Shown here: positions 12,364 to 35,968 of the stretch, piece after piece
Layout: every line of letters starts with the position of its first letter
How positions within the stretch are numbered: the first letter of the stretch is position 1
DNA from: Thuidium tamariscinum
Lineage: Eukaryota; Streptophyta; Bryopsida; Hypnales; Thuidiaceae
DNA length: 64,000 nt
Assembly: GCA_947034885.2 (NCBI GenBank)
Contig: OX344754.2
Coordinates: forward strand, 7,757,001 to 7,821,000
Direction: 5' to 3'
Position numbers and translations under genes: made by a program
The notes under the pieces: generated by a model
The model's input: the letters and a program-made list of their open reading frames with translations, nothing else
Database searches by the model: none
What the model was told of the DNA's origin: nothing

Positions 12364-12516
12364 TTAAAGTATTTGAATGATTGGCCTAGCATGCAATTAA
12401 GTTTGGCTAAATTGGTTTGAAAGAGCCCTAGAGAGTTCCTATTAAATTGTTTCAACTTATTGAAGTAGGTATTGAAGGCAAAGGCCAAAAGTGTGACAAG
12501 TACCCTTATGCCCCTA

Positions 12517-13640: not shown

Positions 13641-14057
13641 GGAGCATGAGGAACCGTGGATGCAAGTTGGGGTCTCGGCTTCGAATCGGGATGGGGAGTT
13701 GGCATCTCGTTTGGGGACCTCAATGCCCATGTCTTCCACATGGGTGTGGCAAGACATATTTTTGATCTTTCCATTTAAAGTCAGTATGGAGCGGAAAGTC
13801 GAAAATTTAGCAACCGGATTTGTTCAGGGAACGGGTAAGATCCAGAAGTAGTACCAGATAATGTTGTAGAGACCGGTGGCAGAATAATTCCGGTTTATTA
13901 CGACGGAATACCGGAACGGAAAAATTCCGGACCCTACAGAACGGATTCTATCCGGATTCAGTCCCAGAACGGAACGGATGATTTCCGGACTTGGACCGAT
14001 CGGATGAGAACGGGAACGGATGATCAGGAACGGAATACCGGATCCATTTCTGGAAAG

Positions 14058-14064
14058 TATATAA
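14058..14064 (+). promoter_or_regulatory. TATA box of the CCGGA element
   Basis: TATATAA sits in an otherwise GC-rich stretch, about 350 bp ahead of the gag-like start codon at 14416. This is the expected arrangement for an LTR promoter followed by a leader. Confidence 0.5.
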
Positions 14065-14415
14065 GGCCTGACATTTTCAGTTGGCCCATTTGCTCTCAGG
14101 CGCTTCGTTGTGTGTTTTTCAACCCTCAACGTTTTCCGCCTTTTCTGTGAGTTGGTTTTCCGTGCGTGTTTGGTGGCGCAATTTTCTGTGACGCGGCTGT
14201 CAGTATTAGCAGCGGGTGTTTTGTCAGAGCGGGCAGTTGTCAGCGGCGCGGGTTTCAGACTGTGCGCTGAGACGCTGGTGTGTGGAGAGGAGTGTGTGTG
14301 TGTATGTGCAGGTGGTTATTACGGGCGGATTACTTTTGTAGTTGTGTTGTGAGTGTGTGTGAGGAACGGGACGTGCGGCTAGGAGAGCAGTGAGGTAGTT
14401 TTCCGGATAGTTGCC

Positions 14416-16098
14416 ATGCCGCAGCTACGCCGGAAGAGAACCGAGTCCACTACACCCCCACCCTCAGGGATAAAGCTGAAGAAAGTAGTTCCGCTCATCC
14501 CTTCCACAGAGCCGGAGAAAAGCAACTTGATGGCGGACTTAACCGCAATGGGGTGTCTAGGGTTAGCAGAGATACCCTGGGGTTTCAAGGAGGAGCGGAT
14601 GGTGAAGGAGCTGAAGGGCAAGGTGTCGAATCAGTTCGACAACACGGCGCGGGGAATGCCGCACAAATGGACGGAGGCGCACTGGAGGGCCGTATACGGG
14701 TTCAAACACCAGGGGCACGGACCGGCCGGGAGGAAGGTAGACTTCCTCCAAAACAAGTTTAGTGGCACCCCTCACCCGAAGGACGGATACCGGATCATGG
14801 ACTGCAACGAAGACAGGCATAGGCGCCTGTTGAAGTTTCTGCTTCCGGTCCTTCATCCGGAGAAACCAACCCGGATCACGATCGGCCTGGCCAACACCAT
14901 TTTCGGTGCGCTGATCGGAGACCGGAAAGTGGACTGGGGCCGGATCATACAGGACCTGATCACCCGGTTACTGAAGAACCTCGGAGGGAGTAGGGCAACT
15001 CCGATCTCCCCCTACCTCTTCCACCTCTACCACCATCTACAGCTCCTTTCGGATACGGAAGAGAAGACGTGGCACACCCAGAAGATAGTCTTGACGTACG
15101 GGGAGACGTCAACGGATGATGAGGAGAGCTCCGAGTCCGAGACAGAGCGGGAGGACTCGGATAAGGGAGAGGAACCGGAAGTTCCGCTCGTGAAGCGGCA
15201 GAAGACCACACCGCCGAACACGAGGGGATCTCCTCCGGTCCGACACAATCCGGGAACGGAAGGCAGAGCGGGACCATCCGAACCAGGTTAGGCCGAACCA
15301 GCAGCAGAGGAAACGGATCCCAGTGATCCGTTCCTGCAACTGACGAAAATCCTGTGCAACATCCGAGCGGATTGGGAGGTCAAGCGGATCGTCCTGGAGA
15401 ACATCGCGGGGATGGTCAATGGCAAACCGGATCATACTCTTCCGACCGTGGTAGGGAATTGCATCGCCTCGCCTGCGGATCTCGCCAAGTTGGAGGAGGA
15501 AAACCGGAAACTTCAGGAAGAAGTTGACGGTTTGAAGGCGGAGCTCCTTGTTCTCAAAGACAACGAGGCCGCTACCAAGGAGATGGCGGCAGAGACCGTC
15601 AAATTGGCGGAGCACGTGAAGACAACATTCGGGGAACCCGGATCGGCTGTCATCCGGGCTCAACTGTTTGATGAAGAAGTGCACAAGGAGAAGAAACTAT
15701 TCGGAAGCCGGATAGTCCGGATTCTGTCCGACTTCTCCGAAAAGGTGGAGACGACTTTGGTGAAGGTTCGGGAGGCGGCCGAACGGATGGAAGACTGTAG
15801 CCGGAGACTGACGGAAATTTCGGTCAGACTCTCCGATCTGTCTCTACCGGATATTTCCGAAGGGTTGCCTCAGAGACCAGGGAAGGACAGGACGCCGCAA
15901 TCCAAGAAGTCAGGGTGAGCGTCAACGGGCAACCGGGAGGCGGCAATTCAGTTGTCGGAGTCTCCTGCGAGTCCGGTTACTGGAGCTCCGGTTGCAACAG
16001 ACGGAGAACGGAATCGGAACCTCACCGAGGTCTTCGAGCAGATCAGTAGGGCGGAAAGCCCGACTATAGGATCTAGGGTAGCAGAGCCGGATACGTAG
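14416..16098 (+). pseudogene. Gag-like protein of the CCGGA element, two nonsense codons
   Basis: A single frame of about 560 codons is interrupted by TAG at 15289 and TGA at 15916. The N-terminal 230 residues align clearly with the intact protein encoded at 27619-29535. Shared landmarks are PHPKDGY, PTRIT-(7)-ANTIFGAL, a VxWGR(I/V)I segment and PxxFSPFLFHLYH-like residues. An acidic Ser/Glu-rich linker follows, then a coiled-coil segment with LFDEEVHK and a heptad-like region (about residues 400-490). I infer a gag-like or nucleic-acid-binding structural protein because it is the only ORF of the element. The N-terminal fold loosely recalls the 'putative plant transposon protein' class, but that is a guess. 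This copy is dead unless read through. Confidence 0.6.
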
Positions 16099-17345
16099 GT
16101 ATTAGGACTTTCCTGTTTTTGTAGTTTTTAACTTAGGAACGGATCAGGAGGAAATCCGGTCCGGTTTAGGAACTTGGAGCGGGTTGGAATCCGTTCCGGT
16201 TCAGAAGTAGGTAGGAACGGATCCGCCGAGCGTTAATCGCGGCGGACTTGTATGGCGCTTTTTGCTTTTTGCCCATTATTTAAGTCAGTCCCCTCGCGGT
16301 GGACTGGGAGTCTTTTCCTTTGCATTATCTTTGTGTATTCTATTCCCTCTTGCTTTGTGCGTGTATCTCCCGGGTTTGGCAGGGCGGCGTGACGCGGAGT
16401 TAGGAAGGCGCAAGTGGTTTTGCAGGCGACGTTCTCCCTTTGGTGTTTATTTTCCGCGTCTGAGTATATGAGAACGGGTAGAGAAGAGTTGGGAGTGTAA
16501 TTCTAGTGCCTCAGCGCTTCTAGGACTTAAGATTCCGGGTGAGAAAGCCGTTGTTAGGCTAGACGAGAGGGAGGGATTCCTTAATCGTGCTAGAGCTCCT
16601 AGGTGGGAAACCCAGTTGAGTGTCCGATCTCCTGTGAGGTCTCACCGTCTTTGTGGCAAACGGAAGAGTTCCAGTTGACGTTGGAATGGACGGATACACT
16701 TGTAGCCACTTGGCTCCCCAGGAACGGAAAGTAGTGTCAAAGTCGTTGTAGTATGAGAAGATCGTACGGGGGATCTCTGTGTGACCTACAGTCCGGATCT
16801 TTGTCTGGATTGTTGTGGGGGATCAAACCGGATCTGAAGTATTTTTAGAATTAACAGGTAGAAAGTGGGTCTTCAGCCACTATAAGTCACGGAAGGAGCG
16901 GTGGGCCTACCGCTCACAAAATCAAGCGGCGACCCCTCTGATGGTAAAACAGAGGCAAAACTAAACCGGATTGAGGAACGGATGTGGACGGATCATCTGG
17001 AACGGATTGATCCAGAGAGGAAACCAGGAGCGGAACTCGTTAGGAAGCGGATCCGTTGCAGTCTGACGGAACGGATAAAATCCGGGAAACCGGAAGAGTC
17101 AAGGAACGGATCCATTCCGGACCAGATTGCTAGAATATCAGTTTTGAACGGGATAACGGGTTGTTATCTCGGGTTGTTTGTGTATTTCCGGTTCTAGATC
17201 TAGAACCGGATTATAGAGTTTTGGGAGCTGTCCTATCTTAATCGCTTAACTAAACCAGATACTTCACAGAATCTCGCGGGTTCGATCTTTAGAGTCACTT
17301 AGTTATACTCTAGAGTGATTTTTGTGAGTATAATAGGGAATTTAC

Positions 17346-19115
17346 TTACCCTGTGTTGCGACAATGGGGCAATGGAGATTCATCTTTTTCAAGTTGAGTC
17401 TCCCATGTGATGGAGTGAGAGGCATTTGCCTCGGAGTTTCGTCCAAGCATGCAATCATTCTTTAAGAATGGTGTAGACTTGACTTGTGCAATGTTGTGAG
17501 GTTTTTCTAGTTTCTTTTGAAGCTTTTCCTCACTTTTATTACTTGAAAAAGATCTCATTGCGTTCATGGGTGTATACGTAATGAAAATCTACACCTAAAC
17601 TTGTACAAAAACGTGTTTTTTTGTGTTTTGGAGGTGTTTTGCGTGTGCTGGAATTGCAAAAGAACCTCAAGTTCTAGCACCATAGCCATGGTTTTAGGGT
17701 GTTTTAGCCTTGGAAATGGGTCTTGAGCCTATAGGTGTTGAAATGTGCATTATTGCACCTAATTGTAGCAAAGGATAGATAAGCATGATGTCTTTTCACC
17801 AATGAGAGGCATTAAAGTGAACCATGAGTTAAGGGAACGCTTAGGGAACTCAAGGGAACGTGGAGGGGAGAGTCGTCTCTCTCCTGAGAAGAATAAACAT
17901 CCCCGAAAGTAGTTTGGTTGACGTTGCCAGGGACGTTGCCTCATTTTTTGGGTGAGCAAATGTGCGAAGCGGTAGCTGCGAGCGAAGGAAGTCCACTCGC
18001 TACTGACGGGGACAAAGGATCTGCTAGGAAGGTTTCCAACAATGGCCCTTGATTGAGCGCTTCCGTGGACAATTTTTCCAAGAGGAGCAAAGATAGGCTG
18101 CAACAGACGGGAGTGAGTATTGGGGATTATGCTGTAGCTCTCTCAGCTTGCGCTCTCAGCTTGCGACAATATTGAGGGAACCTGGACGAAGGAGGCAATG
18201 ACTTCTTATATTGCAAAGCGGAATTGATGGATCAGGAGGCGCCAAAAAGAGAGGTTAGCTCCTTAAGAATTTGCTTTGCTGGCCGAATTCCTGTTAGTAG
18301 CTCCTGTTTATCGCGAGTAGTGTAGAACAGTGGTCGGAAGTCCACAGTTATGGCAGTTTTCGAGCTTCCTCGGAGCTGCTGTGGATTTTACTTTTGAATC
18401 GACTCCGAAATGGAGCCTTGTCAATTCGGATTGAGATTGTAGATTTGCGTGAAGCAGTGCGAGAGTGGCTTGTTTTCGGAAGACTGCAGGGGTCAATGCA
18501 AGCTGAGCAAGTTCATGTACCTAGGACTTGTATTCTTTTGTGCTTCGATTTTAGCCCTCTCACGGAAAGATCTGGAGACTTCCCAACTTCCATACTAGTT
18601 CCCAAACGCCTAAATTCACCTTTCCAACCGTAGACACAGATTGCTTGCGAAACAATCGTGGATGCAAGTTTTGAGTCTCGACAGAAAGACCCGAGAACTC
18701 ACGCATCTTGCCGCTTGGGAATGCGGAAGTTGGTGTAAGTTGTAGCGGCAAGATCTGATCTGCCTTGGTATTTTGTCAAGACTTCGAACTGTCCTAGTCC
18801 ATCTCGACGTGCTTTTGTTCGCGCTTCTACCGAATTCCGGTGTTGCCGAATTTCACTGCTGAAGTTCACTACCGAATTCTGGTGTTGCCGAATTTCACTG
18901 AGTTTCACTGCCGAATTGTCGAAGTCGCAATTTTGCTGTTCTAGAAGCTCCGTAGTCCTCACATTGCATTCGTGATTAGCATTCGCGGATGATTGGACGT
19001 TATAATTGATGAGGTGATTGAATTGCACTTGGATTCATATCCGCTTCGGCTAGCACTGAGAATTTAGGGATTTGAGACTTGTTCGCGTCGAAGCCAGCAG
19101 GTGAGAACTGGGATG
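17346..19115. other. Unassigned region upstream of the gypsy element
   Basis: No convincing gene. Base composition is higher in GC than typical spacer but lacks the CCGGA strings. It may hold the 5' LTR and leader of the gypsy element that follows, but I found no matching sequence downstream of 35968 and no clear tRNA primer-binding site, so this is unproven. Confidence 0.35.
18829..18900. repeat. 31-bp direct repeat, two copies
   Basis: TACCGAATTCYGGTGTTGCC followed by GAATTTCACTG occurs at 18829 and again at about 18869, with a truncated third 'gtttcactgccgaatt' after it. Function unknown. Confidence 0.65.
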
Positions 19116-19196
19116 TGACCGGCACAACCGGTCATCCGTAGGTGGTGAACGGTGATCACCGTTCATCCAGTACTCGGTGACCGGATCAACCGGTCA
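19116..19196. repeat. Three consecutive short hairpins
   Basis: TGACCGG-cacaa-CCGGTCA (19116-19134), the perfect 20-bp palindrome TGAACGGTGATCACCGTTCA (19146-19165), and TGACCGG-atcaa-CCGGTCA (19178-19196) lie 30-32 bp apart start to start. The second has the same consensus with a one-base change kept symmetrical in both arms. They lie about 150 bp before the first ORF of the gypsy region. Confidence 0.8.
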
Positions 19197-19338
19197 TCAT
19201 TGGTCAAGGCTTGCCTGTAGCACAGGGCGCTTAAGGCCAAGTTTTGTAAAAAAAACAAAAAAAACAAAAAACAAAACGACTACAACTTCTTTGAAAGTTG
19301 TTATTGGATGCATTGGAACCTAGCATTGGAAGTGGGAG

Positions 19339-19773
19339 GTGGGAGTAACACTTATGGTGACCACGAGGGCCCAAGCGGCTCGCCATAGATCTCCAGCACA
19401 TTTCCCTGAGTTGACAAAGGCAGAGCAATGGCAACATGAGGCCGACTTGATTGCAGAGCTATTGACCATCATTCAAGAGCGAGTGCCAGATCGAGGACTT
19501 CAGCATCATGGGGCAGAGTTTTGGAGTGTGTGGCGTGCAGATTTGGCAAGGGCACAACGTATGGATGTCAGTGCACTAGGTGTAGTGGCCTACCGCTTTT
19601 GTGTGGAGATTACTCCTTTCATCTCCTTAGAGGGTTGGGATAATAATCGGGAAGGAGTCTTGGATCGGTTGTTGCATGCTCAGTCTCTTTGTGAGATAGA
19701 GGTTGAAGTACTCAATGTTGGACTCAAGTACTTAAACCGCGACCATATGATTGACTTTGTTCGGTGCTCCTAG
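19339..19773 (+). CDS. Hypothetical ORF upstream of gypsy gag
   Basis: A 144-codon open frame. A second ATG at codon 6 gives the start MVTTRAQ, a common opening of plant gypsy gag proteins. The rest is amphipathic helical, with no motif I recognise. It may be a separate small ORF of the retroelement or the remains of an N-terminal gag. It is intact, unlike the polyprotein downstream. No host gene homology was recognised. Confidence 0.4.
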   Translation: MGVTLMVTTRAQAARHRSPAHFPELTKAEQWQHEADLIAELLTIIQERVPDRGLQHHGAEFWSVWRADLARAQRMDVSALGVVAYRFCVEITPFISLEGWDNNREGVLDRLLHAQSLCEIEVEVLNVGLKYLNRDHMIDFVRCS

Positions 19774-19972: not shown

Positions 19973-20656
19973 ATGGACAAAGGCAAGGGTGGCCTTATGC
20001 CATTTAGGTTGGTACCACTAGGAGACACAAAAAAGGAAGGGGTACAAATTGAACTAACCGAAGAAGATCTTCAAGGGGTTCTAGAGTCCTTTCAAACCCT
20101 TCATGTAGGGTCCTCAAGTGAATCTAATCTAAGACATCAACCTCAAGAAGCTACTTTGCCATTTGTTCTCTCACCATTGGCACGTGACCAACTTGGAGTC
20201 CAAGCATTCAGGCAACCAGGCACTAAAGTGTTAGGTCCAAAGGCAATTAAATTTTGGACTCAACAACGAGGAGTGCGCCTCATTTGGGACTTGAGAGCAG
20301 AGTCGCCTAGCATTGGAGCTCCGTTGAATCGGGCAAGGGGGCGAGTGGAAGCAATTGACGTGGTGATTCCACAACAAGCGGTGGTGTTGAAGAACGAGGG
20401 GCAACGTCGAGAGGTGGTGAGACATATTTTTGAGGGGGCAATTCAATTGCCAACGGTCTCCTTGATTTTCACTGAGTTCCAAAGTGGGGATTACTTGTTC
20501 CACACAACGTGGCAGTGGGAACAAGGTTGGTGGCTAGAAAGAGCATCTAATGTTTGGGATGCTCTAACACGTAGTTTCCTAGACATAGAGGTGCCACCAA
20601 CAATTTACTGTGAGGCGGTGGAGGGGACACATGAGGCTTGGAAGCTTTACATGTGA
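19973..20656 (+). CDS. Hypothetical 227-residue ORF upstream of gypsy gag
   Basis: An intact ORF from the ATG at 19973 in a frame different from the polyprotein, ending 20 bases before the putative gag start at 20677. It is tryptophan-rich in the C-terminal third (FHTTWQWEQGWWLERASNVW). I do not recognise a family. Its position suggests an accessory ORF of the gypsy element. Survival of an open frame this long beside a polyprotein with a stop roughly every 0.9 kb is not improbable by chance, so it is weak evidence of selection. Confidence 0.45.
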   Translation: MDKGKGGLMPFRLVPLGDTKKEGVQIELTEEDLQGVLESFQTLHVGSSSESNLRHQPQEATLPFVLSPLARDQLGVQAFRQPGTKVLGPKAIKFWTQQRGVRLIWDLRAESPSIGAPLNRARGRVEAIDVVIPQQAVVLKNEGQRREVVRHIFEGAIQLPTVSLIFTEFQSGDYLFHTTWQWEQGWWLERASNVWDALTRSFLDIEVPPTIYCEAVEGTHEAWKLYM

Positions 20657-20676: not shown

Positions 20677-23031
20677 ATGGATCCGTCTAGCAGGTCGAGT
20701 TATACCAGGAGCGGGACACCATTTGCTAAAGACACCGTTTCTGGGTCATCAGACTCCAGTGGTGTCACACTAGTACAGTCTCGGGATCAAAAGCCTTTCT
20801 TGGGGAAGAAGAGTCAAGGTGATTCTATCATAAGTACTAGCCAAGGGCAAGAAGATTAGGTGGAAAAACTTGAGCGTGTGGAGGAAGAAGACCTATCCAC
20901 CCTCATAGTTGACCACGGGGTAAAATTTGTTCCTAGGGAATCTATATTCGTGTGGGACGAGATGACTACACCATATGGGAATTTTGATCGGGGAGTTCGA
21001 CGATTTTCGGGTGCTACAGGCACCATGGAGGTTGATGATTTTCGAAGGGAGTTCACCATGTGGTGTGAACTCCAAAAATCACACAACACTGACTTTAATC
21101 CATACATGATATGGAGAGCATTATTTGGGTGCCTTGAAGGAGCACCGCTAGCAGATTATGGGGAGTTCGAACTTGCTCACTCCGTAGAGATTCTAGCATG
21201 GCGGGATTATTATTCCCCGAATTTTGCCGATGTATGGGGAGGAGGGCCTAATGTTATGGTCCCGTATAACAAAGGAAAGAAAGAGGAAGGGAGCGTTGGT
21301 GTAGAAGGCTCAGGTGCCACTGTCACTACAACTCCCATGGTGGTGAGAGATCCACCCCCTTTCAATCCCACTGCATGATTTTTCATGCAGTTGCAACGAG
21401 ACTGTCAAGGCCAACGAGCAGATAAAATGAAGTCACTTCGCACATTTTCACGTGGGAGTGATGAATCATTGCGAGAAGCACATTCGAGACTGAAGAGATT
21501 AATCTCTGCAACACATGGAGTAACTGAACAGCAAGCTGTTCAGCACTGGTATAGTATACTCGACAAGGAGTTGAAAACTCTAGTCCGAGGAGAAGCCTTG
21601 AGATTAGGTGTACCACCAACTTTAAGGTTTGTTTTTGAGACCTCTGAGAAGATTGAGATCAATCTCTTGGAGGAAAAAGCTGCCATGGGGTTCTTAAAAA
21701 AGGAGGAAAAACTGCCTGAGAAGACCAAGTTTGCCAAAGCCAGCATTCCAGCTAACACTGGAGATGCAGATATTGTATGTTATGGCTGCGGGGGAGTTGG
21801 TCATCGTTGGCGAGATTGCAAAAAGATAACCAAGAAGGAACCTTCTAAGGCAGGTGGTTATTGCTCTGGGTGTGGTGTTAAGGGCCATGGGGAAGCTAGT
21901 TGCTGGAAGATACATCCAGAACTCAAGCCTAAAGGAGCTAAAGATGCAAAGGGGGCCGAGGCCAAAGAGGCCAAAACTACTAATGGAGACAAGAAATCGT
22001 GGAAGGCTCGATTTACAAAGTTGGAAGCTAAGATGGCGGCTATGAGTGTCAACGTTGATACCAAGGGATCCTCTTCTCAAAAGACTACAACGTCTTTTTA
22101 TGCAGAGGAAGATGATCACATGCTATGTGGTTTGGCTGAATCAAATGGAAACCTAGTGGAGGGTTTTGCCATGACACGGAGCAAGACTATACTACCTGAC
22201 GTACCACGAGGTGCAAGTACGGGGTTGGATCCACAACGAGGTGAAGCCAACCGCCAAGCGCGGTTGCCAGAGTCATTTACAATAGAAGATGTAGTTCCCA
22301 CCTCATCTATGGTACCACCAAATCGACATTCAAGCACTCAGCGAGCTAAGCAGCCTACTACTACAGGTAGCCAAGACATTGGCATACTCCTTGATGCTGC
22401 TACTAAGGTTTGCCAGGCTCCTTTATTTTTTGCATCCATAATTTCACACTCACAGTTTAGTGTGGCTAAGGTGTTCCAATTGGCGGCTACCATGTGTGAG
22501 GAGGGCACCTCTACATCTATGAGTGCAATGGAAACCAGGCTTGAGTTAGAGATAATGACTACTGAGAATTGGGTCCAGTCTGAGGGCCTTATCTCAGCGG
22601 CTGCTCAATTGAAGACCATGCCAGCACGTCCAGCAATAGAACGGTCTTCCATCACTCCAAGGGTGGTGGTTTTTGATAATTCCCAAGGTGTTTTCCAACT
22701 TGTTGGATCTAAAGGGAAAGTTTTTGCACCTCAAAGAGTACTATTGGATTCTGGAGTCCAACCTTTGATGCTAGGAGAGTCGGCAATCGAAGGATTGGGT
22801 TTAACTAGGGACACATTAGAGATGTGTCTATGGACCATTAGTACATCTATGGGAGGGACGGAGCAAGCTAGTGGCATCACAAAGGGCGAATTAACACTAC
22901 GGCTTCGCCATGATGATGTCGAGGACGCTAGCTTCATGAAGGTGAAGGCTATAGTCATGGAGGCCAAATCTTATGATCTTTTGGTAGGGGCTATGGTACT
23001 ATACCCTATGGGCTTCACCTTAGACTTTTGA
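20677..23031 (+). pseudogene. Gypsy gag and protease
   Basis: Opens with ATG at 20677. TAG at 20857 and TGA at 21376 break the gag part. The capsid-like region covers about 20980-21560 (RRFSGATGTMEVDDFRREFT ... LEGAPLADY). Two CCHC zinc knuckles follow: C-x2-C-x4-H-x4-C at 21778-21819 and a second at about 21862-21900, which bind the RNA genome. The aspartic protease is at about 22660-23020: the active-site motif is LLDSG (Asp at 22747) in place of the commoner LDTGA, and the second conserved segment is SYDLLVGAMVL. The frame ends at TGA 23029, probably an altered Trp codon, because the next codons continue protein-like sequence into the methyltransferase. Confidence 0.85.
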
Positions 23032-24846
23032 AAGGAGACAACATCTTATAGACCGGGATGGCAAGCTAGAGATGGACGAAAGGCTCACTTGCCAGCTCGT
23101 TTTATTCGAGTTCTTACTGGTAATCTTGTTGATCTCTATTGCTTCTCTGGGCTTGTAGCTGAAGGCCAACCTTGGTTTGAGGAGGATTTCGAAAACCTCC
23201 ATGTTGCCACTTCTATTGCAAATAGCCAAGATTCAGATAATTACTTGGATAATTCCGAAGATGGGGGCGAAATATTATATCAACCAGGGGTGGAATCAGC
23301 GTGGGAGAGTACCGCCAAGCTACAAGATGCAGTAACAATCGTGATTCAAGAGGCGTGGCAGCAATCCCTATTGCCACGGGATGAGGAAGACCATACAAGT
23401 ATGGACGATGCTGGTCCGCCTCTAGATACTTCTACAATCCATTGGAAACCATCAAATGAAGGTATTACACTTTTGGAGTTGTTTGGTGGGATTGGCACCG
23501 GATTGGCTGCAGTATTGCAGGCAGGAGTGAAGATGCGACGATACCTTTATGTGGACAATGACGATATGGCACGTCAGGTGGCAAAGCGTCATGCTCGACG
23601 ATTGCGCCAAGAATTTCCTTCATTATTGAGTACCCATGCTATCAAAACTGCATTTTCTGCATTACCACGTGACATTTCAATGATTTCACATGAGGACATT
23701 GTACGCGTGGGACCTGTAGATTTAATTATTGCGGGGTGGCCGTGTCAAGGTATGTCTATGGCCGGTAAGCAAAATGGGTTGAAGGACAATCGTTCTTCGC
23801 GGTTTTATGATATGGTGTAGATAATTCGTTCTATCCAAACTTCTCAACCGCGTCCACCAGGGTATATTATTGAAAATGTACCTGTAGTGAGTACTTCACG
23901 CACACGCACGCTAGAAAGTAATCATTGTATTCATGGAATTCTGGGCATTTTCGTTTTATTGGATGTAGCAGCAGTGGGCTCACGAGCTCATAGACTGCAA
24001 CTCTGGTGGACTAATATGGCACCACCAGAGTTATTATCTGCTGCAATTGAACGGACTAAACGTCCAGATGTTTATGTGAAGGATATTTTAGATCCTCACC
24101 GTTCACCAAGGCGTGTATACCATGATGATCAAGCTCTCTTAGCGGTAGTTAATCGCAAAGGCAAACCACGCAGGGCTTTGCCCACTTTGGTGAGTTTTTC
24201 AAGGTCCTATGCCTTTAAGGACAATGGACCAGGCTTAGTGTGGGATTCCCGCACTGAAGAAATGGTGGAACCCAATGCTGACGAACGGGAAAGGGCTATG
24301 GGATTCCAAACGGGAATCACCAACATTCCTGGTATCACCGAGTTTCAGAGACGACACCTCATAGGTCAAGCCATGGATTTAAATTGTCTCTCTTGGGTGG
24401 TTTCACTTGTAGTGGCTGAGCAAAAGCATATAGCTTCAACTTTATCAGGCCACTTGGGATTTCATGAGTTGCAAGAGGCCATGAAACCATCAAGTTCCAA
24501 GACTTCGCACTTGATGGTTGGGGGCGAAGGGGCCCTTACAACTCACCCATGGGATTTATGGAAGAGTAATTCATTTTTCACGACTCCACGAACCAATTGG
24601 CCTAGTTGGGAGCAAATGGCCAAGCATACAATCGAATTGGAGGAGCATGTGGATAAATTATTCTTTGAGGAGCACATAGAAAGTCAAACCGAGGAAATAT
24701 GGCAATTGAGCCAAGTTGAAGAGCACTATGGCATGGTTGGAGTAGAGCAAGATGACTCTACTCCACGTGGTGTGCAATAGCAACCAAAGGTGGAAAAATC
24801 TGCTTCAAAGGAAGATAGGAAGGAAGCGGTGACCAATAAAACTTAG
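23032..24846 (+). pseudogene. Retrotransposon-encoded C5-cytosine DNA methyltransferase
   Basis: The enzyme family transfers methyl from S-adenosylmethionine to carbon 5 of cytosine in DNA. Motifs appear in the canonical, unpermuted order. Motif I ELFGGIGTGL (23476-23505) binds the cofactor. Motif IV is GWPCQGMS, with the catalytic Cys codon at 23743. Motif VI is IIENV (Glu at 23872). Motif VIII is HRLQLWWTN (from 23989), where the second Arg of the usual RxR appears as Gln. A C-terminal part has ERERAMGF (motif IX-like) and RRHLIGQAMD (motif X-like). The motif I style and the WTN segment are closest to the DNMT3-like group, an inference. Stops at 23818, 24778 and 24844 would truncate it. It is fused in frame between protease and RT, so it was part of the polyprotein and not a passenger. 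Confidence 0.85.
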
Positions 24847-25010
24847 CAACCGTTGGTAGGCCTGGACAATAAAGCAGAGATGAAGGAGGAACAAGAATTC
24901 CTTAAGGTGTATGTGGATTGTTTTGCCTTTAGTCTTAAAGACTTAGGTGTACTGAAGAGACAAGAGGTTCGTATTAACTTGACGGATGATGCACCGATTT
25001 ATCGCAAACC
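24847..25010 (+). pseudogene. N-terminal piece of gypsy reverse transcriptase
   Basis: The segment preceding the RT palm is typical of plant gypsy elements: a FAFSLKDLG stretch, then INLTDDAPIYRKP, after which coding stops at the left border of the nested element (25010). The reading resumes at 33047 with YKYSEVERK, in frame once the insertion and one AAACC copy are discounted. Residues after 25010 in this frame belong to the inserted element. Confidence 0.85.
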
Positions 25011-25323
25011 TGTGAGCGCTCCTAACTCCACCCTCGAGCTAAGAGTTTTTCACACGGGTCCTGTGTCTAATTGAGTTTTCTTTCTAATTGGGTAAAAAAG
25101 AAAGCCTTCCAAGCAATGAACTCTTTTAGTCACGTTTTAAAGTATTCTAATCTAATTTTGTGGTTATAATTCTATCTTATTCTATTCTAAAATTCATCCA
25201 ATCGATCCTACTATATTCTAGCCTATTGAATATTATTGGTGCCTAAATTTAATTCCAAGCATTTGGTAGAAAGAAACTTAACAGTAAAACAATGAGAATG
25301 AAAATCAAATGTGAGCGGTTTAC

Positions 25324-25419
25324 CTCCTCGGCGTAAATCTCCATGGTCCCGTCGTCGAACATCATCATATGCAAATATTCTCCTACAACCTCGCCATCGA
25401 ACTCATCCCGGCCCTCCAT
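25324..25419 (-). other. Conserved 32-codon exon-like ORF in element E2
   Basis: The partner of 7093-7188. ATG at 25419 (reading leftward), 32 codons with the core MMMFDDGTM, then GAG GAG and a GTAAAC donor-like sequence. The two-codon ATG GAT TAG at 25428-25420 abuts it exactly as in the other copy. The difference pattern between copies favours conservative changes (Asn/Asp, Ile/Val, Asp/Glu, Phe/Tyr), suggesting it was translated. Unknown function. Confidence 0.45.
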
Positions 25420-26214
25420 CTAATCCATAATAATTCGCACGTTGTCGGTCAATTAATCTGGTCCTGTTTTTTTAAAAGAAACTAAAGTTATGTAGCTTTA
25501 ATTTAATTGCGTAATTCTTTTAATTCCTAAATCCCCGGTAATTAGGAATTACTGCAATTTAACTAGTCTACCTAAATGGTTAAGGTTCTAAAGAAATCAA
25601 TGGAAGTCTAATAATTCACTATTTGTTGTTTTTGATTTTCTTTAATTCTTAAAATTAATGTGATGAAATTCCTAATTGAATTAAAATAATTTGGGTGGAA
25701 ATTCCCTTCAAATCTTTTCAAATCCAATTGATTTTCGAAATTGTTTTAATTCCAACGAAATTAGTTGTCAATTTATTTGTTTCCCTTTTGGCTTATTAGA
25801 ATATTTTAATCGAAAAACTATCATCAAATCTTTTCAAATCTAATTAATTTTGAATTTGTGTTAATTCTAAAGAAATTGGTTGTCAATTTGTTTCTTTCTT
25901 TTTGGCTTATTAGACCTAATAAAACAAAACCAACAAAATCCAAACCTTTTAAGAATCTAATTAAGAACTACCGACCAAAGAATGTAGAACATACTCCCTA
26001 GAATAAGTGCCAATTCAATAGTAAGATTCTAAAACAATTAGTTTTAAAAGGGTGTGGGGTCAACGTTGAGAATAAAGAATTAGATTTCAATAGTAAGATT
26101 CTTAGGAAATTGATTTTTTTAATGCCAAATCCTCTCACGTGGTTATCTCTCCCTTAATCTTCCTTCCTTTAATTCCTTCCGTCTCTCTCAATTTTGCATT
26201 TAGATTGTGCAAAT

Positions 26215-29200
26215 TTTGTTGAGAGTTTGGTGTCGTAGCACAAGGAAGCACAAATCCGTCTATAGGTGTTAATTTGGCGTTAACACCGTTCAAATGACTC
26301 GTGTATCGTTCCCACAGGATTTTACGTAGATTCCTCAAGATATCCGGAATAACAGGATGCGGAAAACAACCCCAAGACAACAGTAACCGGATTCCTAACC
26401 GGAAACTTCCTTACAACATCCGCATTCCTTTAGATTGCCTTTCTCACCATTCATATATACTTTACAACTCTCACAACAACCTCCAAACAGGGGGGAGTGC
26501 CCAAACTCTGTACCTTCCCCTATCCGAACTCACAATATCCGACTGGGCGGATTAGGAACCGAAAGGAGTGCCCAAACTCTGTACCTCTTCCGGATCCGGT
26601 TTCCGGATCCAATCACTCAAGTAACAAATGAAGTTTAGCCTCTGTATTAGAGGGGTCCGCGGTTGGCATTTAGGAAGGATGCGTTGAATCCTACCCTCCT
26701 CAGGATTATAGTGAATGGAGTTCCACTAAAAGAGAAAAAATAACAAAAGATATAAAAGAAATAGGCTGCAAGTTCCTCCTCACAACTAATCCGGATTGCA
26801 ATCCCAACTAGTAGGTCACTCAGGAAACCCCTACAAACCCCACATTACTACAATGACAGACTCACCCAAACTCAGTTCCTAAGGCTTAATCTAGGAGCCA
26901 GATAACTAGGGGATCCTAACTGTCTACACATCCCTCACTTCCGGTTATAGTAGGACCTCAACAACACGTCAATTGGCATGCGCCCACTCTCCTAGCAGAA
27001 CACACCCAATCTAAGAGCGGCTTTCCCACACAGAAGCCTCCAGGTGACTGCAGCAGCTAGACTTCAATCCTAATACACCAGTAGCCTCAACCAAATCACT
27101 TCAATTTCCCGGAACCGGATTCAGACAAAGTCTGGGGGAGACACCTCATCCAAACACCTGCAAACCCAGCTACCTCGTACTATCCAATGGTTCTAGCATT
27201 GCACGGTATACCAATCCAGAGTCGAGACTTGTTCAGACCAACTCTTAGAAAGTAGAAATCTGGAAATCAGATTGCAAATGAAAGGAAAAACAGAAGTAGG
27301 AACACCCGGGGCAACCAACTAACAGCCATCCCTAAATACCAACCCAAGGGAACCCTAAAAGCCCCAAGGGAACAAAATCAGAGGACAAGAGAATGCCAGG
27401 TGGCATTCCTTATCCACAAAAGTCACTTTCCTATCCACCCAACTGGACCCGAAAAAAGTGGATCTCAGATCCGAAAAATCCGGATCTGACTGACCAGGTG
27501 CATTCTAAGCCAAAAGCACCTTGCTAACTTCTTCCTACCTACTGGAAAGGTAACTTTCCACCTTTTCCACTAAGTCTGCTCCTCAAAATTCTCTACCTAC
27601 TCTACTTTCTATGCCTAACTACTTCTTCATCCGCTTTTTGGGGGAATCCGCATGCTTGGCGGCTCCCTTGCGTGCTGGCTGTTTCCTACTGGTGGAAGCC
27701 TTTGCCGACGCAGCTGCTTTGCCCTTGGAAGGCGTGGCAACATTCTTACCCTTCCCCGTAGATTTTGGAGGCGTGATTTTCGCCGGGTCTGACGGTTCCG
27801 GTTCCGGTTCCGATCCTGATCCGGATTCCGAATCCGACTCCTCTTCTTCGTGCTCGCTTTGCTCTGGGGACTCATCTTGGTCCGACTCCAGCTCAATGGG
27901 ACTCTCCCTCGCCCGCTTCGCTGTAGCCTTCCTCTTCATTGTGCTAGGAACCTTGGGAGACTTCTCGGATACCTTGCTCGGAGGCGTCTCTTGATCCTGG
28001 TCTTCCGCTTGGACTTGCTTCCGGATTTGGGATCCGGGTGTTGCCCCTTCTCCCACATCAAGATCAAGTCGGGAAGCTGCCTTGGGCGCCTGTGGAGTCT
28101 TCTCTTCCACTGAACCCTTGCCCTTGGACTTCCCAGAGTCAAGTGGAGAAACCACTTTGAATTCAGGAACCGGAAATACACTTTCCTTACCCTGGCTGGC
28201 TTCCTTCCCCGTTTTCGGATCCGGATACAGCCCAGCCCCTTGCAAAGCCTCCCTGATCTCAAACAAAGTTCTCTCCATCCTCTCACCAAACTCCACTAAT
28301 ACCTTTACCATCTTAGAAGCCACTGCCGGCCCTGCCTTATGCACTTCCTCATCAAATAATTTTGCCTTGTTAAGTACATCGCCCGGAATCTTAATAGAAT
28401 CCCGGATCCGCTTGAGGATTGCTTGGGACTCACCCGACAGCCTCCTAGACTCTTCTGACTTCTTCTCCAACTGACCTTGGAGATCCCTAACCTGAGTGGA
28501 CAATTCCGCAATCCGGCTTTCCCACTTCCCAATATCCTGATTTTTGAGAAGTTCCTCTATTCTCTCACACAAAACAGAGGGACTGATGTTTCCCATCAGT
28601 CTACATGCCTTCCGGACTTCCTCTCTTTCCCCACTCTGATCCTTTCGGATCCTCTCCAAATCCGCAATAACAATTCCTAACGGATCCTCCTTCCTATCAC
28701 TCGGCCAGACCGGATCCTCTTTCACTTCCTCAACCTCTGGCTCCTTTCCCTTCCTTGAAACAGGAACCTTCTCTTGCTTTCTCTCCTTCTCTGAAGATCC
28801 TGGTCCTTTCGAACCTTCCTTTCCCTCTCTCTCTTCCTCACTTTCCGATTCCGGGGGAGGACTGATGCCAAACTTCAGCATTACGAAGGCTGACTTGTAC
28901 AGTGTGGCCTCTCTATCCCTCAGCAAATCAAGAGAGTGATACAGATGAAAGAGAAAAGGACTGAAGATGGTGGGTTTAGACTTTCCGGCCAAGGATACCA
29001 ACTTTTCTACATGATCCCGGATTACCCTCCCCCAACTAACCTTCCGCTCCCCGGATAGTGCCCCGAAGATCGTGTTGGCTATCGTGGTTGTAATCCGGGT
29101 TGGCCTTTCCGGGTACAGAATCGGGGTTAGGAACTCTAGCACTCTCCTATCCCTCTTGCTTGCACATTCCGCGACCGTATACCCGTCCTTAGGATGCGGT

Positions 29201-30226
29201 GGTTTGGAGAACTTACCCTTCAAGAACTTGTCCGTCCTTGAGGCTCCTCCTTCTCCCTCCTTAGGAAATCCATATGCCTTCCTCCAAAGTTTCGCTGTCC
29301 ACCGGTTAGGAAGCGCCCTAACAGTCCGGTTCCACTCACTGGACTGATCCTCCATCACCTCCCAAACCATGTCTTTGTCTTTGAGGTTCCATGGGCGCTG
29401 CAGCAACCCTAGGCAGCCAATCTGGGTCAGGTCCTCCTCCAAATAAGCGCGCTCCTTGGCATCCTTGGGCACTCCCGGAGTTACGGACTTTAGGTTCACG
29501 AAAACCGGATCCTCCGCTTCCTTGGACTTCCCCATCTCTCACTCAGATAGGCGCTCAAGGTTTCAAGACGGATTATCTTACCACAAAACCCTCAACACAC
29601 AACCAGCGCTCAAAGAAACCACGAGGTTCTCACTCAAAACCCTCTTCCTTCAAGCCGGCCACGCGCCCTTCCGCAATACAGGAACCGGAAACTCTGTAGC
29701 CCTCGAAGACTCAAACTCCCGCCCTTGCAACACAAAAGAGCTCTCAAAAACACACTCAAAAAGCACCAAGACGAATCGCCACCAAATGAGAGTGACAACC
29801 CTTCCATCAGCCATGACCCCTGGAATCCCAGAACTAGCCGTTTTAACTGACAGTTCCGTGATTTCCGGATGTCCCACCGTTAGGGTTTCATCCAATTTCT
29901 CTCGGCGGCGCCGCCTTTGCCGGTTAGGGTTCCGTCGGCTCCTGGACAACTGGTGGTGGCCTTAGGATGACATCTGGACCCTTCCACGATCCTAGGGCTA
30001 AATCCCAGATCCTCAATCCGGTTCCGGATTTTCCGGTTAGGTAAGGGTTTCTACTTCCTTTTCTTAACCTAATTATCCCAATTGGATGTCTCCAATTTCC
30101 ACCTCTTCCTAATCTTACTAATTTTCCCTATTCTTGACCAAAGAATCGAAAAATTTATCTAAGATTAGCTTCCTTATTCCTAATTCTATACTAAATATTA
30201 AAAACCTGTATTCTAGGTTCCCACAT
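26215..30226 (-). mobile_element. CCGGA-rich retroelement, copy 2
   Basis: It interrupts homology between elements E2 and B: the flanks of this segment are contiguous in B near 6390-6480. The segment is rich in CCGGA/TCCGG strings and carries the intact gag-like ORF. Near its left edge the complement reads AATCCTGTGGGAACGATAC (about 26302-26320), a phrase often seen in plant retrotransposon LTRs. Terminal TGTTGAGAG (left) and CCCACA (right) would fit TG...CA ends, but no clear target duplication was found. About 800 bp on the left and 700 bp on the right of the ORF are noncoding. Confidence 0.55.
27619..29535 (-). CDS. Gag-like single protein of the CCGGA element (638 aa)
   Basis: An intact ORF starting MGKSKEAEDP. 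Residues about 1-235 form the conserved domain shared with 14416-15120, with landmarks WNLKDKDMVWEVME, PHPKDGYTV, PTRITTTIANTIFGAL, VSWGRVIRDH and FSPFLFHLYHSLDLL. Next come an acidic, low-complexity stretch (EEEREGKEG, SEKERKQEK), a coiled coil at about 340-430 with LFDEEVHK, and a long disordered C-terminus. The latter alternates acidic (ESDSESGSGSEPEPEP) and Lys-rich tracts and ends in PKKRMKK, a plausible nuclear localisation signal. I infer an RNA- or chromatin-binding gag-like protein that could package the element in trans with enzymes from an autonomous partner. It is not a zinc-knuckle gag. An intact frame implies recent insertion or function. Confidence 0.7.
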   Translation of the reverse strand: MGKSKEAEDPVFVNLKSVTPGVPKDAKERAYLEEDLTQIGCLGLLQRPWNLKDKDMVWEVMEDQSSEWNRTVRALPNRWTAKLWRKAYGFPKEGEGGASRTDKFLKGKFSKPPHPKDGYTVAECASKRDRRVLEFLTPILYPERPTRITTTIANTIFGALSGERKVSWGRVIRDHVEKLVSLAGKSKPTIFSPFLFHLYHSLDLLRDREATLYKSAFVMLKFGISPPPESESEEEREGKEGSKGPGSSEKERKQEKVPVSRKGKEPEVEEVKEDPVWPSDRKEDPLGIVIADLERIRKDQSGEREEVRKACRLMGNISPSVLCERIEELLKNQDIGKWESRIAELSTQVRDLQGQLEKKSEESRRLSGESQAILKRIRDSIKIPGDVLNKAKLFDEEVHKAGPAVASKMVKVLVEFGERMERTLFEIREALQGAGLYPDPKTGKEASQGKESVFPVPEFKVVSPLDSGKSKGKGSVEEKTPQAPKAASRLDLDVGEGATPGSQIRKQVQAEDQDQETPPSKVSEKSPKVPSTMKRKATAKRARESPIELESDQDESPEQSEHEEEESDSESGSGSEPEPEPSDPAKITPPKSTGKGKNVATPSKGKAAASAKASTSRKQPARKGAAKHADSPKKRMKK

Positions 30227-30469
30227 TTGGCTATGGAAGTTGGAGAGAATAGAGGTTAGTGTGGTGAAATTCCAAAGTTACAAATGTTGGATTTTTGATA
30301 CCAAATCAAATGGAGAATGGGATGGTATTCTTCTTCCTTTGATTTTTTATTTAAACCCAATTTTTGTAACACTACCTTAAAAGTGGAGTTTGCAAGTCAA
30401 CTTTGTTAGGAAAATACTTACTTGTGTGTGTGGTTGTTGGTGTCTTCCTTAGTGAGTTTGGGACTCTTA

Positions 30470-30740
30470 GTTGTGAGTTTGGGACTCTTAGTTTGTGAAT
30501 TTGGGACTCTTAGTTTGTGAGTTTAGAACTCAAAATGGCCTGGCCTGGCCTAGACCAGAGCCCCAGCCCGATCGCATAGAGCCCAGCCCGATCGCACAGA
30601 GCCTAGCTCGTTACACAGAGCCCAGCCGATCGCACAGAGCCCAGCCGGCGCCATGTGGCGCGGCGCCCGCCTCCTTGCCGCTGGCCTCTCCCTGCTCCAG
30701 GCCGCTGGTCCGCCTTCGGGCTGGTCCCTGGACTTGGAAT
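30470..30740. repeat. Short tandem repeats and GC-rich minisatellite in element E2
   Basis: Three copies of about 27 bp ('gtgagtttgggactcttagttt') at 30470-30530 are followed by four copies of about 20 bp ('cccagcccgatcgcacagag') at 30555-30645 and a GC-rich tail. This corresponds in place to the variable GC-rich blocks in the sibling elements. Confidence 0.7.
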
Positions 30741-33046
30741 TTTTGGTTTTTTGGACTCTAATTCTTGGACTAAATCTACACTATCTAATAGCTATTGCTA
30801 GTGTCTCATATGTTTGCAATTGGTACTAAGTAATAATCACAGGGTCCTTACCCACCATGTACTAATCTCAATTGAAAAGATAGATGAGGTCTCTCATGCT
30901 CAAGCGTTTAAAGAAAGTGGTATAGTCTTCCGAATTTTGAGGTTTAAAGCCTTTTTATCCCTTCTCGGGTCAACCTTGGGGTGGACCAATTGCAAGTGAC
31001 TTCCCCCTTTTATTGAGGGGTTTAATCCTTCCAAGATGTGAGTGATGGTTCAAAGCTTCGTCGTCTTACGAGTTTTTCCCCGAGTATCTTAAGAATTTTA
31101 TTCGCAAAAAGAGGTACACATGACAGTGTTTAAACCGAACTTTCACTTTAAACTCTTAAAATTTCTTAGTATTTCAAGATCTTACAACCAAAGGAGGTAC
31201 ACATGACAGTGTTTAAACCGAACTTTGGCGCTCAATGCTCAAAATTTCCACGAATTGTTGGTCCGCTAGGTGGTAGAGTAACCTTTTGAAAAAGAATGTG
31301 AATCTCATGAACTAAATGAAGGGGCCCTAAGCCTTCAAATGTGTGACAAATACAAAACTTGGCCAAAACTTTGGTCCAAGTGATGCCCCGACCACGCCGG
31401 TGGCATAAATGAAGAGAGTAACGAAGTGTCGGTGCGAGAAATAAGGGTACTGGCAACCTCGAGGGGGGCCCTTATATACCCGTGGCCGGGCCCCTCTCGG
31501 TAATTGCCGGTGAAAACACTTTGTTACTTCCTACCCTAAACTATCCTAATGTAATTCCAAAATATTAGTTGTTTAATGGTGGAAATTTCTAAAAACATCC
31601 CCATTTTGTCAAAGAAATCTTGGCCAAATCAAATCCAAGATCTTAACCCAAAAATATTTTGGAATTAACCCTAATCTACCTAGATATTTTGCGAATTAAT
31701 CCAAAGTCATTTTGAAAATTGTCTTTCTTTAGCCCAAAGATGGCTTTTTACGCAAGAAAGAGATCTTGACCAAATCCAATCTTTGATTTTCCAAGAGATA
31801 TTTCCAAAATCACTTTCAATTACCCGCAATTAACGATTAAAAAGTCAAACTAAGAGCTGACCCTCTCTATCTTTTAGGGAACAACTCGAAACGGAAAATC
31901 GTCTGCGCCATTGTCTTCAGAAGACCCCAATTAGCCTAAGGGACCCCTTACCCCTCACTCCTAGGCCATTTGCGCGCCCCAATTGGAATTACGGTAACTC
32001 CAATTAAAAATCAAAAATCTAACTTTTAGGATTTGCGCAATTTGATGAATCTGTCAGGCCAAGGTTGTTAGGAATGTCCGTGAGAGTAAGGAATGACTCC
32101 TTATTTGCGACAATCGGACATCATTCGCTCCTGATACGCCAGTCAACCCGCCGCCAACTTGTAACTTCTAGTGAATTTCGATGTCGATGCCGGTTTTGGT
32201 AGTTGGGAATGTCGGAATGTCTTCAAACTTGACCGAGCGCTTATTAAGCACACAAAAACCTATCCTAATTTTTAGTGAGATTTTACTGCATCATACGTAA
32301 TTTCTATGATTTTACGAACATTTCTATGTGCGGTTGACTTCCCATGGAGTCAACGTGGAATTTCGGAAAAATCCGAAATAAATTGGGTAACATCTAGGGC
32401 ACTCCTAGATTCTTGGTGTAAGTCCCACGCAACCTTGCACCTTTATAATTTTAGCAATTTGGAATTACTTTGCCCAATTGGACAATTTAATTCCCGATGC
32501 CCAGGAATCTTGGACAATTGTTTGATTCTCGTTTGCTCCTGGCATGCTCCTACCCTTGGAACACCTCTTTGTAGTCTTCAATCTCCAATCCTCCATCTTT
32601 TGCCTCGTGAAATTTGAATTCTCCAAATTCATTGTAGTGGTTTTACCTTTAAATCCAATTTGTTTCAAAATTAAACTTAATCCCTGGTAACTCTTCTAGG
32701 CTCGTAGTAGACTCTTTAGCTTAGTCAGTATGTCGTGTGCATCCTTAAAAGGTTGACTTTGCACAGACAATTGCTAGGACTGACTAACTCTCTATTCCTT
32801 ATTTCTCTCGGAATTACTAATTCTTCACATATACTTGCTTTGGAGACTTAGAATGATTCCAATTTCTAGTAATAGGAATTTTCCACCATCTAAGTTGGTT
32901 TTCCACCATTTTGGCATAGACTGACACCAAAACTCCCTTAACACTCTTTTTATGTCTTTTTCTTGAATATTTTGACTAATTTTCGCTATTTAATTGCGAA
33001 AAATGGACCCAGAGTCCCGAGTGCCATCTCGAGGGCTCACAAAACC

Positions 33047-34300
33047 GTACAAGTATAGCGAGGTAGAACGCAAGATGATCCAAGCCCAAACCAAGGAGTT
33101 ACTAGAGGCAGGATTGGTAGAATTAGCTTCTCCAGATTGCGAGTATGCATTAGCAACGATCATGCCATCCAAAAAAGACATTTATGGAAATTGGACCGAG
33201 AAAAGGATGTGTGGAGACTATCGTAGAATTAACAAGTTTACGAAGTCAAACCGCTATGTCATGCCAACACCAGAGGAGAATTTTGACGCCATTGGCCATG
33301 CCAAAGTATTTAGTACTTTGGATCTCCGATTGGGTTATCACCAACTTGGTATACGAGAAGGTGATAAGGAGAAAACGACGTTCTGGGGAATTGATGAAGA
33401 TGGTAAGGATTGTCTATATCAGTGGAGGTTCCTGCCATTTGGTTTGAAAAATGCACCAGCAGAATTTCAAAGAGTTATGGATCGCATATTTTAGGGCTTG
33501 GATTTTGTAAAATGCTACATTGATGATATTATTGTCTATAGCATGAATCAAAAACAACATAGAGCTCACTTGGCAGAAGTATTTGCTAGACTGAGGCTCC
33601 ATGGGTTAAAACTACATCCGAATAAATGTAAGTTTTATTATGACCGAGTGGAGTACTTGGGCCAGATGATATATCTCGGTGGATTGGGATTGGTAGCTAG
33701 CAAAGTAGAGGTGATGCTTTCTATTCCAAGGTCGAAGGATGTGAGTAGATTGCGGGCATTTTTGGGTTTGTGTAATTACTATCGGAAATTTGTGAAGACA
33801 TTTAGTGCGATTGCAAAGCCATTAACCATGTTGACAAGGAATGATCAACCTTGGATGTGGGGAGATGAGCAAGAAGCCGCCTTCACGCAATTGAAGGAAC
33901 GGCTAGCGTCGTCACCAATATTAAGAAGGCCAATTTCAGGTAGGACATACCAATTACACACGGATTGGAGCTCACTGGGGATTAGCGCGGTGTTGACTCA
34001 AATGGACGACGATGGCAAGGAGTTTGTAGTAGCTTATGCTAGTCGCTCAAACAACAACGCGGAGGCATAGTATAGCTCATATGAAGGAGAATGTCTAGCA
34101 GCAATTTGGGCAATTGCTCATTTCCGCTGCTATTTATACGGTAACGAATTTCTACTGGTAACAGATCACCAACCGTTGAAGTGGCTTATGGAGTCTGACA
34201 AGCTTACAGGAAAGCTTGCACGATGGGTGCTTATGCTCATGGAGTATGACTTTAAAGTTGTACACCGAGCCGGCTTGGTAAATATGGATGCTGACGGCTT
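33047..34300 (+). pseudogene. Gypsy reverse transcriptase and RNase H
   Basis: Continuation of the polyprotein after the nested insertion. The RT palm shows VFSTLDLRLGYHQL (first catalytic Asp), RFLPFGLKNAP and YIDD (33516-33527), all intact. TAG at 33492 lies just before GLDF and probably replaces a Gln codon. RNase H begins near 33950 with HTDWS, has the YEGEC segment after the TAG at 34068, and TDHQPLKWL at about 34160. Synthesis of element DNA from RNA is the family role. Apart from two stops the catalytic residues are preserved. Confidence 0.85.
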
Positions 34301-35797: not shown

Positions 35798-35932
35798 TGT
35801 GTTTTATGTGGAAGCACCAAGGGTGCTGCCACTATGGTGTTGTGCGACATTTGTTCCACTGGGTGGCATACGGATTGTTTGAGTCCGCCGTTGCAAGAAA
35901 TTCCGGCGGGCCGGTGGATTTGTCCCAAATGT
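35798..35932 (+). pseudogene. PHD finger at the C-terminus of the gypsy polyprotein
   Basis: A full Cys4-His-Cys3 zinc-finger pattern: CVLC, then VLCDICSTGWHTDC, then WICPKC, with the invariant Trp two residues before the penultimate Cys. PHD fingers of this form usually read histone H3 tails. It lies in frame about 60 codons past the integrase C-terminal domain and 12 codons before the polyprotein stop at 35966, the place where chromoviruses carry a chromodomain. All zinc ligands are intact in this copy. The host gene source is unknown. Confidence 0.9.
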
Positions 35933-35968
35933 ATGTCGGGGCGTAGACACGCATCTTCATCTTCATAG

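Follow-up and report, generated by a model that had tools for sequence, protein, structure and literature searches.

A window of 64,000 nucleotides from the moss Thuidium tamariscinum (contig OX344754.2, positions 7,757,001 to 7,821,000; the window is this whole stretch, and coordinates below count from its first letter) contains what, by its coding content, is a decayed Ty3/gypsy-type element with an in-frame DNMT3-type cytosine DNA methyltransferase (DNMT) between gag-protease (PR) and reverse transcriptase (RT). The window's own copy is dead. Its relatives in the genome point to a long-lived Ty3/gypsy-type family in which the DNMT3-type methyltransferase is an integral domain. The overall explanation favoured here, with a probability of roughly three in four, is that of a DNMT3-carrying gypsy family with readthrough of a UAG codon behind the methyltransferase, methylation of its complementary DNA (cDNA) and integration steered by a PHD finger. 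Retrotransposons are normally targets of DNA methylation. Through a lineage whose own DNMT3 has been preserved by purifying selection, the question of why an element should methylate DNA becomes testable in plants by genetics; Marchantia has long predicted open reading frames (ORFs) of the family, for example P0098.

A sequence-only reading of this DNA had proposed a gypsy-type element with a DNMT3-like domain in frame between PR and RT in a plant genome, and the searches bear this out. With stops masked as X, the window DNMT matched Pfam DNA_methylase with an E value of 3.7e-13. A homologue search with it gave 97 proteins, the best at E 6.2e-215 and 67% identity; the nearest homologues are metagenomic (59–73% identity) and the best named liverwort matches show 42–50%. 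The segments that we take to be motifs I (ELFGGIG, 23476 on), IV (GWPCQG, 23734–23751), VI (ENV, 23872–23880), VIII (23977–24015) and IX/X (24274–24396) stand in canonical order, as had been claimed. Alignments of 32 and 21 rows show no variation at the Cys of PCQ or at the Glu of ENV, and little or none at the Pro and Gln of PCQ; in a 40-row alignment the catalytic Cys and Glu fall in the class of at least 90%. The window copy deviates from a nearly invariant residue of motif VIII. Catalytic motifs I–X are linear and the nearest similarity is to DNMT3, the class being taken from the relatives; the predicted fold of an intact relative's domain is that of DNMT3 and, in this model, its closest fold is the active DNMT3A/B domain. 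DNMT1, MET1 and CMT chains were not among the profile-search matches, which does not exclude them. A scan of viral contigs gave 16 loci at 22–50% identity, presumed phage methyltransferases, which were set aside.

These observations bear on whether the domain has been retained for something other than DNA methylation, be it to methylate RNA, to bind RNA or DNA, or to serve as a structural component of the particle in the manner of DNMT3L. Such a role would suit a domain encoded beside gag and protease, and RNA methylation is discussed for LINE-borne DNMTs by de Mendoza et al. (PMC5890265). However, the conserved PCQ Cys and ENV Glu and the closeness of the predicted fold to an active enzyme make it quite improbable.

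The limits of the element were set by alignment with six sister regions, and its parts are as follows (strand is given where one applies).

13551–36400, plus strand: whole DNMT-bearing gypsy element with TGTC...GACA termini, two later nested insertions included; sister-copy homology starts at 13551 and ends at about 36400
13547–13550: left 4-bp target duplication, GCCC
36401–36404: right 4-bp target duplication, GCCC
13551–13744, plus strand: terminal part A1, first piece
13745–17363: nested insertion 1, with TG..CA ends and an ATGGG target duplication; not in sister copies covering the place
17365–17541, plus strand: terminal part A1, second piece; recurs as A2 in A-B-A-B copies
19339–19773, plus strand: upstream ORF A, no assigned function; open or nearly so in sister copies
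19973–20656, plus strand: upstream ORF B, no assigned function
20677–22689, plus strand: gag region with two zinc knuckles (about 21778–21819 and about 21862–21903)
22690–23028, plus strand: aspartyl protease (DSG); Asp_protease_2 E 3e-4, under the gathering score
23032–24780, plus strand: linker and DNMT3-type cytosine methyltransferase; core about 23461–24420, catalytic Cys codon 23743–23745
24775–24786, plus strand: CAA-UAG-CAA-CCA, conserved putative leaky stop (type I readthrough motif), end of gag-PR-DNMT
24787–25010, plus strand: start of the Pol part, 5' of RT
25011–33041: nested insertion 2, in RT, with TGTGAGC..GCTCACA ends and an AAACC target duplication
33042–34250, plus strand: RT (YIDD) and RNase H (RH); RVT_1 E 2.5e-12 and 2.8e-13, RT_RNaseH_2 E 1.5e-18
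34668–35272, plus strand: integrase (INT), H2C2 zinc domain 34668–34829 and rve core from 34961; Integrase_H2C2 E 4e-15, rve E 4e-5, under the cut-off
35798–35932, plus strand: PHD finger, C-terminus of Pol; Pfam PHD E 1.4e-11, with relatives in the PDB
35966–35968, plus strand: terminal stop of Pol, kept in 5 of 5 aligned sister copies
36057–36400, plus strand: terminal part B1; recurs as B2 in A-B-A-B copies

The order PR-RT-RH-INT was found, with RVT_1, RT_RNaseH and H2C2 above the Pfam cut-off in pieces of the window and the full order in P0126. The claim of one frame common to gag-PR, DNMT and RT holds, with corrections. Gag-like sequence, the two zinc knuckles and the aspartyl protease, ending at 23028, lie in ORFs of plus-strand frame 18901+3n, which is the frame of the DNMT, and arithmetic on the target duplication of insertion 2 (25006–25010/33042–33046) puts RT in the same frame across that insertion. 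The junction is interrupted: only the pre-RT stretch 24847–25010 adjoins the DNMT block, the RT core resuming at 33042 because the 8-kb insertion 2 sits inside RT, and the block itself is not open, with stops at 23029 (just 5' of it), 23818, 24778 and 24844.

The genome searched was the 363-Mb assembly of 19 contigs. DNMT protein matches were found in 50 stretches at 25 places (grouped by hand; such counts are lower bounds), confirming that sister copies exist in the same assembly. Among 24 protease matches 17 reach the protease end, the other 7 being partial, and the DNMT core continues after the protease in 16 of the 17; the remaining one (C3:25.386 Mb) retains just the first 50 residues of the linker. 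From 150 scored RT matches (460 candidates), 19 places have at least 50% identity and 18 of these have a DNMT match nearby, the exception (C1:22967239) being a partial RT match with internal stops; the next tier of RT matches is at 41% identity or less. Close sister gypsy copies thus carry the domain, as the sequence-only reading implied, apart from truncated ones, and since a DNMT follows 16 of 17 protease matches and lies near 18 of 19 RT matches, the fusion is fixed in the family. Of the 25 DNMT places, 16 have a PHD match at a distance of no more than 20 kb. A chance insertion was rejected on the same counts. The window copy, broken by stops and two insertions, might suggest that a piece of a host DNMT had landed in a single gypsy copy by accident or been transduced passively, but the common protease-DNMT junction, the constraint across subfamilies and the relatives in liverworts, Sphagnum and algae described below leave this next to no chance.

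A host DNMT gene was likewise rejected as the source of the signal. By-eye classification puts exons of DRM, DNMT3, CMT and MET1 type at loci of their own, and the domain, though not placed in a tree with host DNMTs, is not part of any of these genes, again in line with the earlier proposal. Host DNMT3-like exons were seen at C4:2622362, C1:3339344, C3:9662817, C1:51496611 and C9:5405112; GGFPCQDL was found in the four that were read, and one of the five has an in-frame stop. The DNMT3 class has been lost in angiosperms according to Yaari et al. (PMC6453930).

Selection was examined as dN/dS by the method of Nei and Gojobori. Between the window and the C1:37.48 subfamily the ratio was 0.09 for the DNMT core (dS 1.74, near saturation), 0.20 for the linker and 0.14 for PR; between the window and C3:21.29 it was 0.09 for RT and 0.13 for PR. 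Whole DNMT segments gave 0.13–0.18 in pairs with either subfamily, and pairs with the distant C10:24.18 were saturated or gave 0.23–0.25. DNMT, PR and RT alike therefore show low dN/dS between subfamilies. Pairs of recent copies gave 0.30–1.14, as expected of copies that decay after insertion, and a value of 0.44 between the two halves of C3:21.29 is meaningless as the halves do not overlap.

The stop at the end of the DNMT behaves differently from the other stops of the window copy. All 15 distinct copies examined have the TAG at 24778 (the stretch is covered in 15 of the 25 places), and in 14 of them CARYYA follows. The ORF1 and Pol stops at 20857, 21376, 23029, 23818, 24844, 33492, 34068 and 35016, in contrast, are absent in all or all but one of the aligned copies: those in gag at 20857 and 21376 are absent from 3 and 5 aligned sister copies respectively, those in RT/RNase H at 33492 and 34068 from 6, and 23029, 23818 and 24844 are each found in one other copy. 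The pattern CAATAGCARYYAAAGGTG gave 13 exact matches genome-wide, all at DNMT copies, and its reversed control gave 0; as the pattern was derived from these same copies, this shows specificity and is no independent test. Six metagenomic homologues terminate at the place matching the UAG. The motif X pattern occurs in 115 proteins, and 79 of them, truncated ones included, end 60–190 residues beyond it. Tobamoviruses have UAG-CARYYA as their type I readthrough motif (PMC5382211), and SIRE1 is a precedent for stop suppression in a plant retroelement (cited in PMC2829016). Here the same UAG and CARYYA stand between the DNMT and RT of a retrotransposon, as a putative readthrough signal.

Conservation of the motif predicts gag-PR-DNMT as the main product and RT-RH-INT-PHD as a readthrough extension. 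It is likely that most ribosomes would stop at the UAG and that a minority would read through it. Readthrough of this kind would make the DNMT in Gag-like amounts, which favours a role in the particle or on cDNA over a rare regulatory one. The enzyme, freed by the protease or kept in the particle, would then methylate new cDNA before or at integration, a step to which we give an even chance; among the roles weighed, a DNMT that would ride with Gag and methylate cDNA is the most likely. The PHD finger resembles those of PHF12, CHD4, KDM5B and PHF21A. Binding to unmodified H3K4 is a property of several of these fingers and also of the DNMT3 ADD domain, which suggests integration into chromatin in which H3K4 is unmethylated. 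More tentatively, the PHD finger at the integrase end could direct integration to such chromatin, so that the pre-methylated copy would land where methylation is tolerated.

Instead of the cDNA, the DNMT might have the host genome as its target in trans, where it would silence rival elements, older copies of its own element or nearby genes. Gag-like expression predicted from the conserved UAG and a PHD finger of chromatin-reader type would both fit, and most differences between recent copies are transitions (55:8, 57:9 and 42:4 in comparisons of the window with three copies), as expected if the copies were methylated. However, an excess of transitions is also the ordinary mutation bias; host exons of DNMT3, DRM, CMT and MET1 type are present, so that methylated copies need no enzyme of the element; and matches were found at only 25 places, itself a lower bound. 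Action in trans is therefore considered unlikely.

Several points weigh against the explanation by readthrough, cDNA methylation and PHD-steered integration. SymbioLINE-Dnmt did not methylate DNA in yeast (PMC5890265). The diverged copy C10:6.52 has lost CARYYA, and a folded readthrough stimulator was rejected, there being no folded RNA element behind the UAG motif (z −0.29). P0063, P0125 and P0126 span DNMT to RT in one ORF, so that readthrough is not universal in the wider family. The protease (Asp_protease_2, 3e-4) and rve (4e-5) matches are below the Pfam gathering scores, and with dS for the DNMT near saturation (1.7 for the core) the selection ratios are rough. Finally, the replicating genomic form is ambiguous, as 6 of the 10 copies with both ends read lack the second pair of terminal parts described next.

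The element ends in TGTC..GACA and 4-base target duplications flank 10 of 10 copies with both ends read (14 were looked at, by eye), as is typical of integrase-type insertion with a short duplication of the target. Copies running from A1 to B1 have GCCC, AATA, GTTA, AAGC, TATA and TTTG, those running from A1 to B2 have AAGG, AACA, GATC and CGCC, and in 4 of the 10 one terminus differs by at least one base from TGTC or GACA. The longer copies are ordered A1-coding-B1-NN-A2-B2, NN being two bases at 5 of 5 junctions read (GT, GC, AC and GC, plus GC in a fifth copy read without its right end). In the C2:35.4 copy A1 and A2 are 97.3% identical and B1 and B2 99.1%, which indicates a young insertion. 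Direct joints of A to B occur at 7 places, and the joined unit at one of them, C3:10.54 Mb, stands alone. A2-B2 is absent from the window copy among others, and the A1..B1 copies may be products of recombination between B1 and B2 or direct insertions. In the window copy no terminal direct repeat was found in 10000–48000, hence no identical long terminal repeats (LTRs) of the Ty3/gypsy kind, and a canonical LTR element was rejected in favour of A1-coding-B1(-A2-B2); gypsy affiliation rests on the kinship of RT, RH and integrase and on the TG..CA ends. A primer-binding site with at most one mismatch to nine plant tRNA complements was not found in 17365–19500, nor a purine run of at least 11 in 35901–36400. 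Copies without ordinary LTRs would escape LTR-based annotation.

Beyond Thuidium, relatives are present in liverworts, Sphagnum and Closterium and possibly in chlorophytes. Three protein searches, one giving the best 120 of 237 matches, returned mostly unnamed proteins; the named ones are from Marchantia polymorpha, Calypogeia fissa, Riccia sorocarpa, Sphagnum jensenii, S. fallax, S. troendelagicum and Closterium, and otherwise from Cymbomonas and Haematococcus, and Klebsormidium was not a name among the matches listed. The protein P0030, labelled as coming from a metagenome-assembled genome of Candidatus Obscuribacterales, belongs to the plant retroelement family, and its bacterial label probably reflects plant contamination of that genome.

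Most relatives have PR, DNMT and RT in that order. In P0127, P0129–P0131, P0134, P0139 and P0140, however, RT and RNase H precede the DNMT, in P0128 RNase H does, and in P0136 and P0137 the DNMT precedes the integrase with no visible RT, so that their RH-DNMT-INT label is inferred. In the DNMT tree these 10 proteins fall in one clade of 11 (SH-aLRT 95; quick method, long branches flagged, unrooted), the eleventh being P0065, to which no domain order was assigned. In the RT tree, also unrooted, the 7 RT-bearing rows form a clade with P0145 of Haematococcus (97/99). Rows outside the list of ten, P0145 and P0141 included, were labelled PR-DNMT-RT by default; P0145 in fact has RT before the DNMT, 1400 residues apart, and so labelled the RH-DNMT-INT rows are one clade. 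The simplest reading of these trees is that the DNMT came to lie between RNase H and integrase by one relocation or one separate capture. A broader view would be of a gypsy class spread through the green lineage, a self-contained writer and reader in which DNMT3 is a core component at Gag level through a leaky UAG, the integrase carries a PHD reader, and a DDE integrase moves split repeats like those of DIRS. In one of its clades the DNMT would have left its place ahead of RT for one between RNase H and integrase. The odds for this broader view are evenly balanced.

Other features of the window were noted. ORFs A and B have no Pfam match; ORF B shows 60–65% protein identity to two diverged copies with dS saturated, and ORF A about 30%, with dN/dS 0.28 in one pair and saturation in the other. 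The 5' part with these ORFs is far more diverged than Pol in copies C2:35.4 and C2:13.0, suggesting mosaic elements. Nested insertion 1 has two long adjacent ORFs (14383–15918) whose sole Pfam match, TFIIF_alpha at E 0.005, is sub-threshold. Nested insertion 2 has a minus-strand ORF of 639 amino acids (27619–29538) with no Pfam match, and a direct-repeat search of the window found no long terminal direct repeat in it. A repeat family X occurs at 335–2325, 12513–13550 and 37829–39482, and the DNMT element appears to have inserted into one of its copies. A large imperfect hairpin at 42977–44386 has 363-nt inverted arms that are 99% complementary, and it contains direct repeats of 178 nt. A minus-strand ORF of 389 amino acids at 8392–9561, with weak F-box and KIB1-4 beta-propeller matches under the cut-offs, is probably a host gene.

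DNMT-bearing gypsy elements are already known, from Klebsormidium; outside that genus none is described among the papers listed by searches of open-licence literature, judged mostly from titles and the openings of abstracts. Within that same literature the occurrence of such elements across liverworts and mosses, the putative leaky stop, the PHD finger, the combination of target duplications and split repeats, and a second place for the DNMT in gypsy elements were not found and appear new. KnitGypsy-Dnmt3 of Klebsormidium nitens (de Mendoza et al. 2018, PMC5890265) carries an unrearranged, intronless Dnmt3-type DNMT, under purifying selection, in its Pol ORF, and has DIRS-like repeats (A-coding-B-A-B according to the figure legend). 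The moss element shares the unrearranged DNMT in the Pol frame without introns and part of its copies share the repeat arrangement, whereas its conserved UAG-CARYYA ending gag-PR-DNMT, the PHD finger ending Pol and the 4-bp target duplications set it apart; the words PHD and chromodomain are absent from the main text of that paper. SymbioDIRS-Dnmt3 of Symbiodinium (PMC5890265) likewise has a Dnmt3-type domain in a Pol polyprotein, A-coding-B-A-B repeats and two coexisting Pol domain orders, but it has a tyrosine recombinase where the moss element has a DDE-type integrase with target duplications. The retrotransposon-embedded DNMT3s of streptophytes and dinoflagellates in PMC12344493 also lie within retrotransposon structures; that paper, which cites the 2018 report, mentions LTR Copia and DIRS families in its text, whereas the moss RT, RNase H and integrase are of gypsy type. 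Split direct repeats are shared by DIRS/PAT elements and part of the moss copies, and their movement by an integrase blurs the boundary between DIRS and gypsy. DIRS/PAT elements have a tyrosine recombinase and are not known to make a target duplication, whereas the moss element has an H2C2 and rve integrase and 4-bp target duplications. Chromoviruses are Ty3/gypsy elements with an integrase chromodomain; in both, the C-terminal end of the integrase bears a chromatin-reader domain, but in the moss element the reader is a PHD finger and the polyprotein carries a DNMT in addition.
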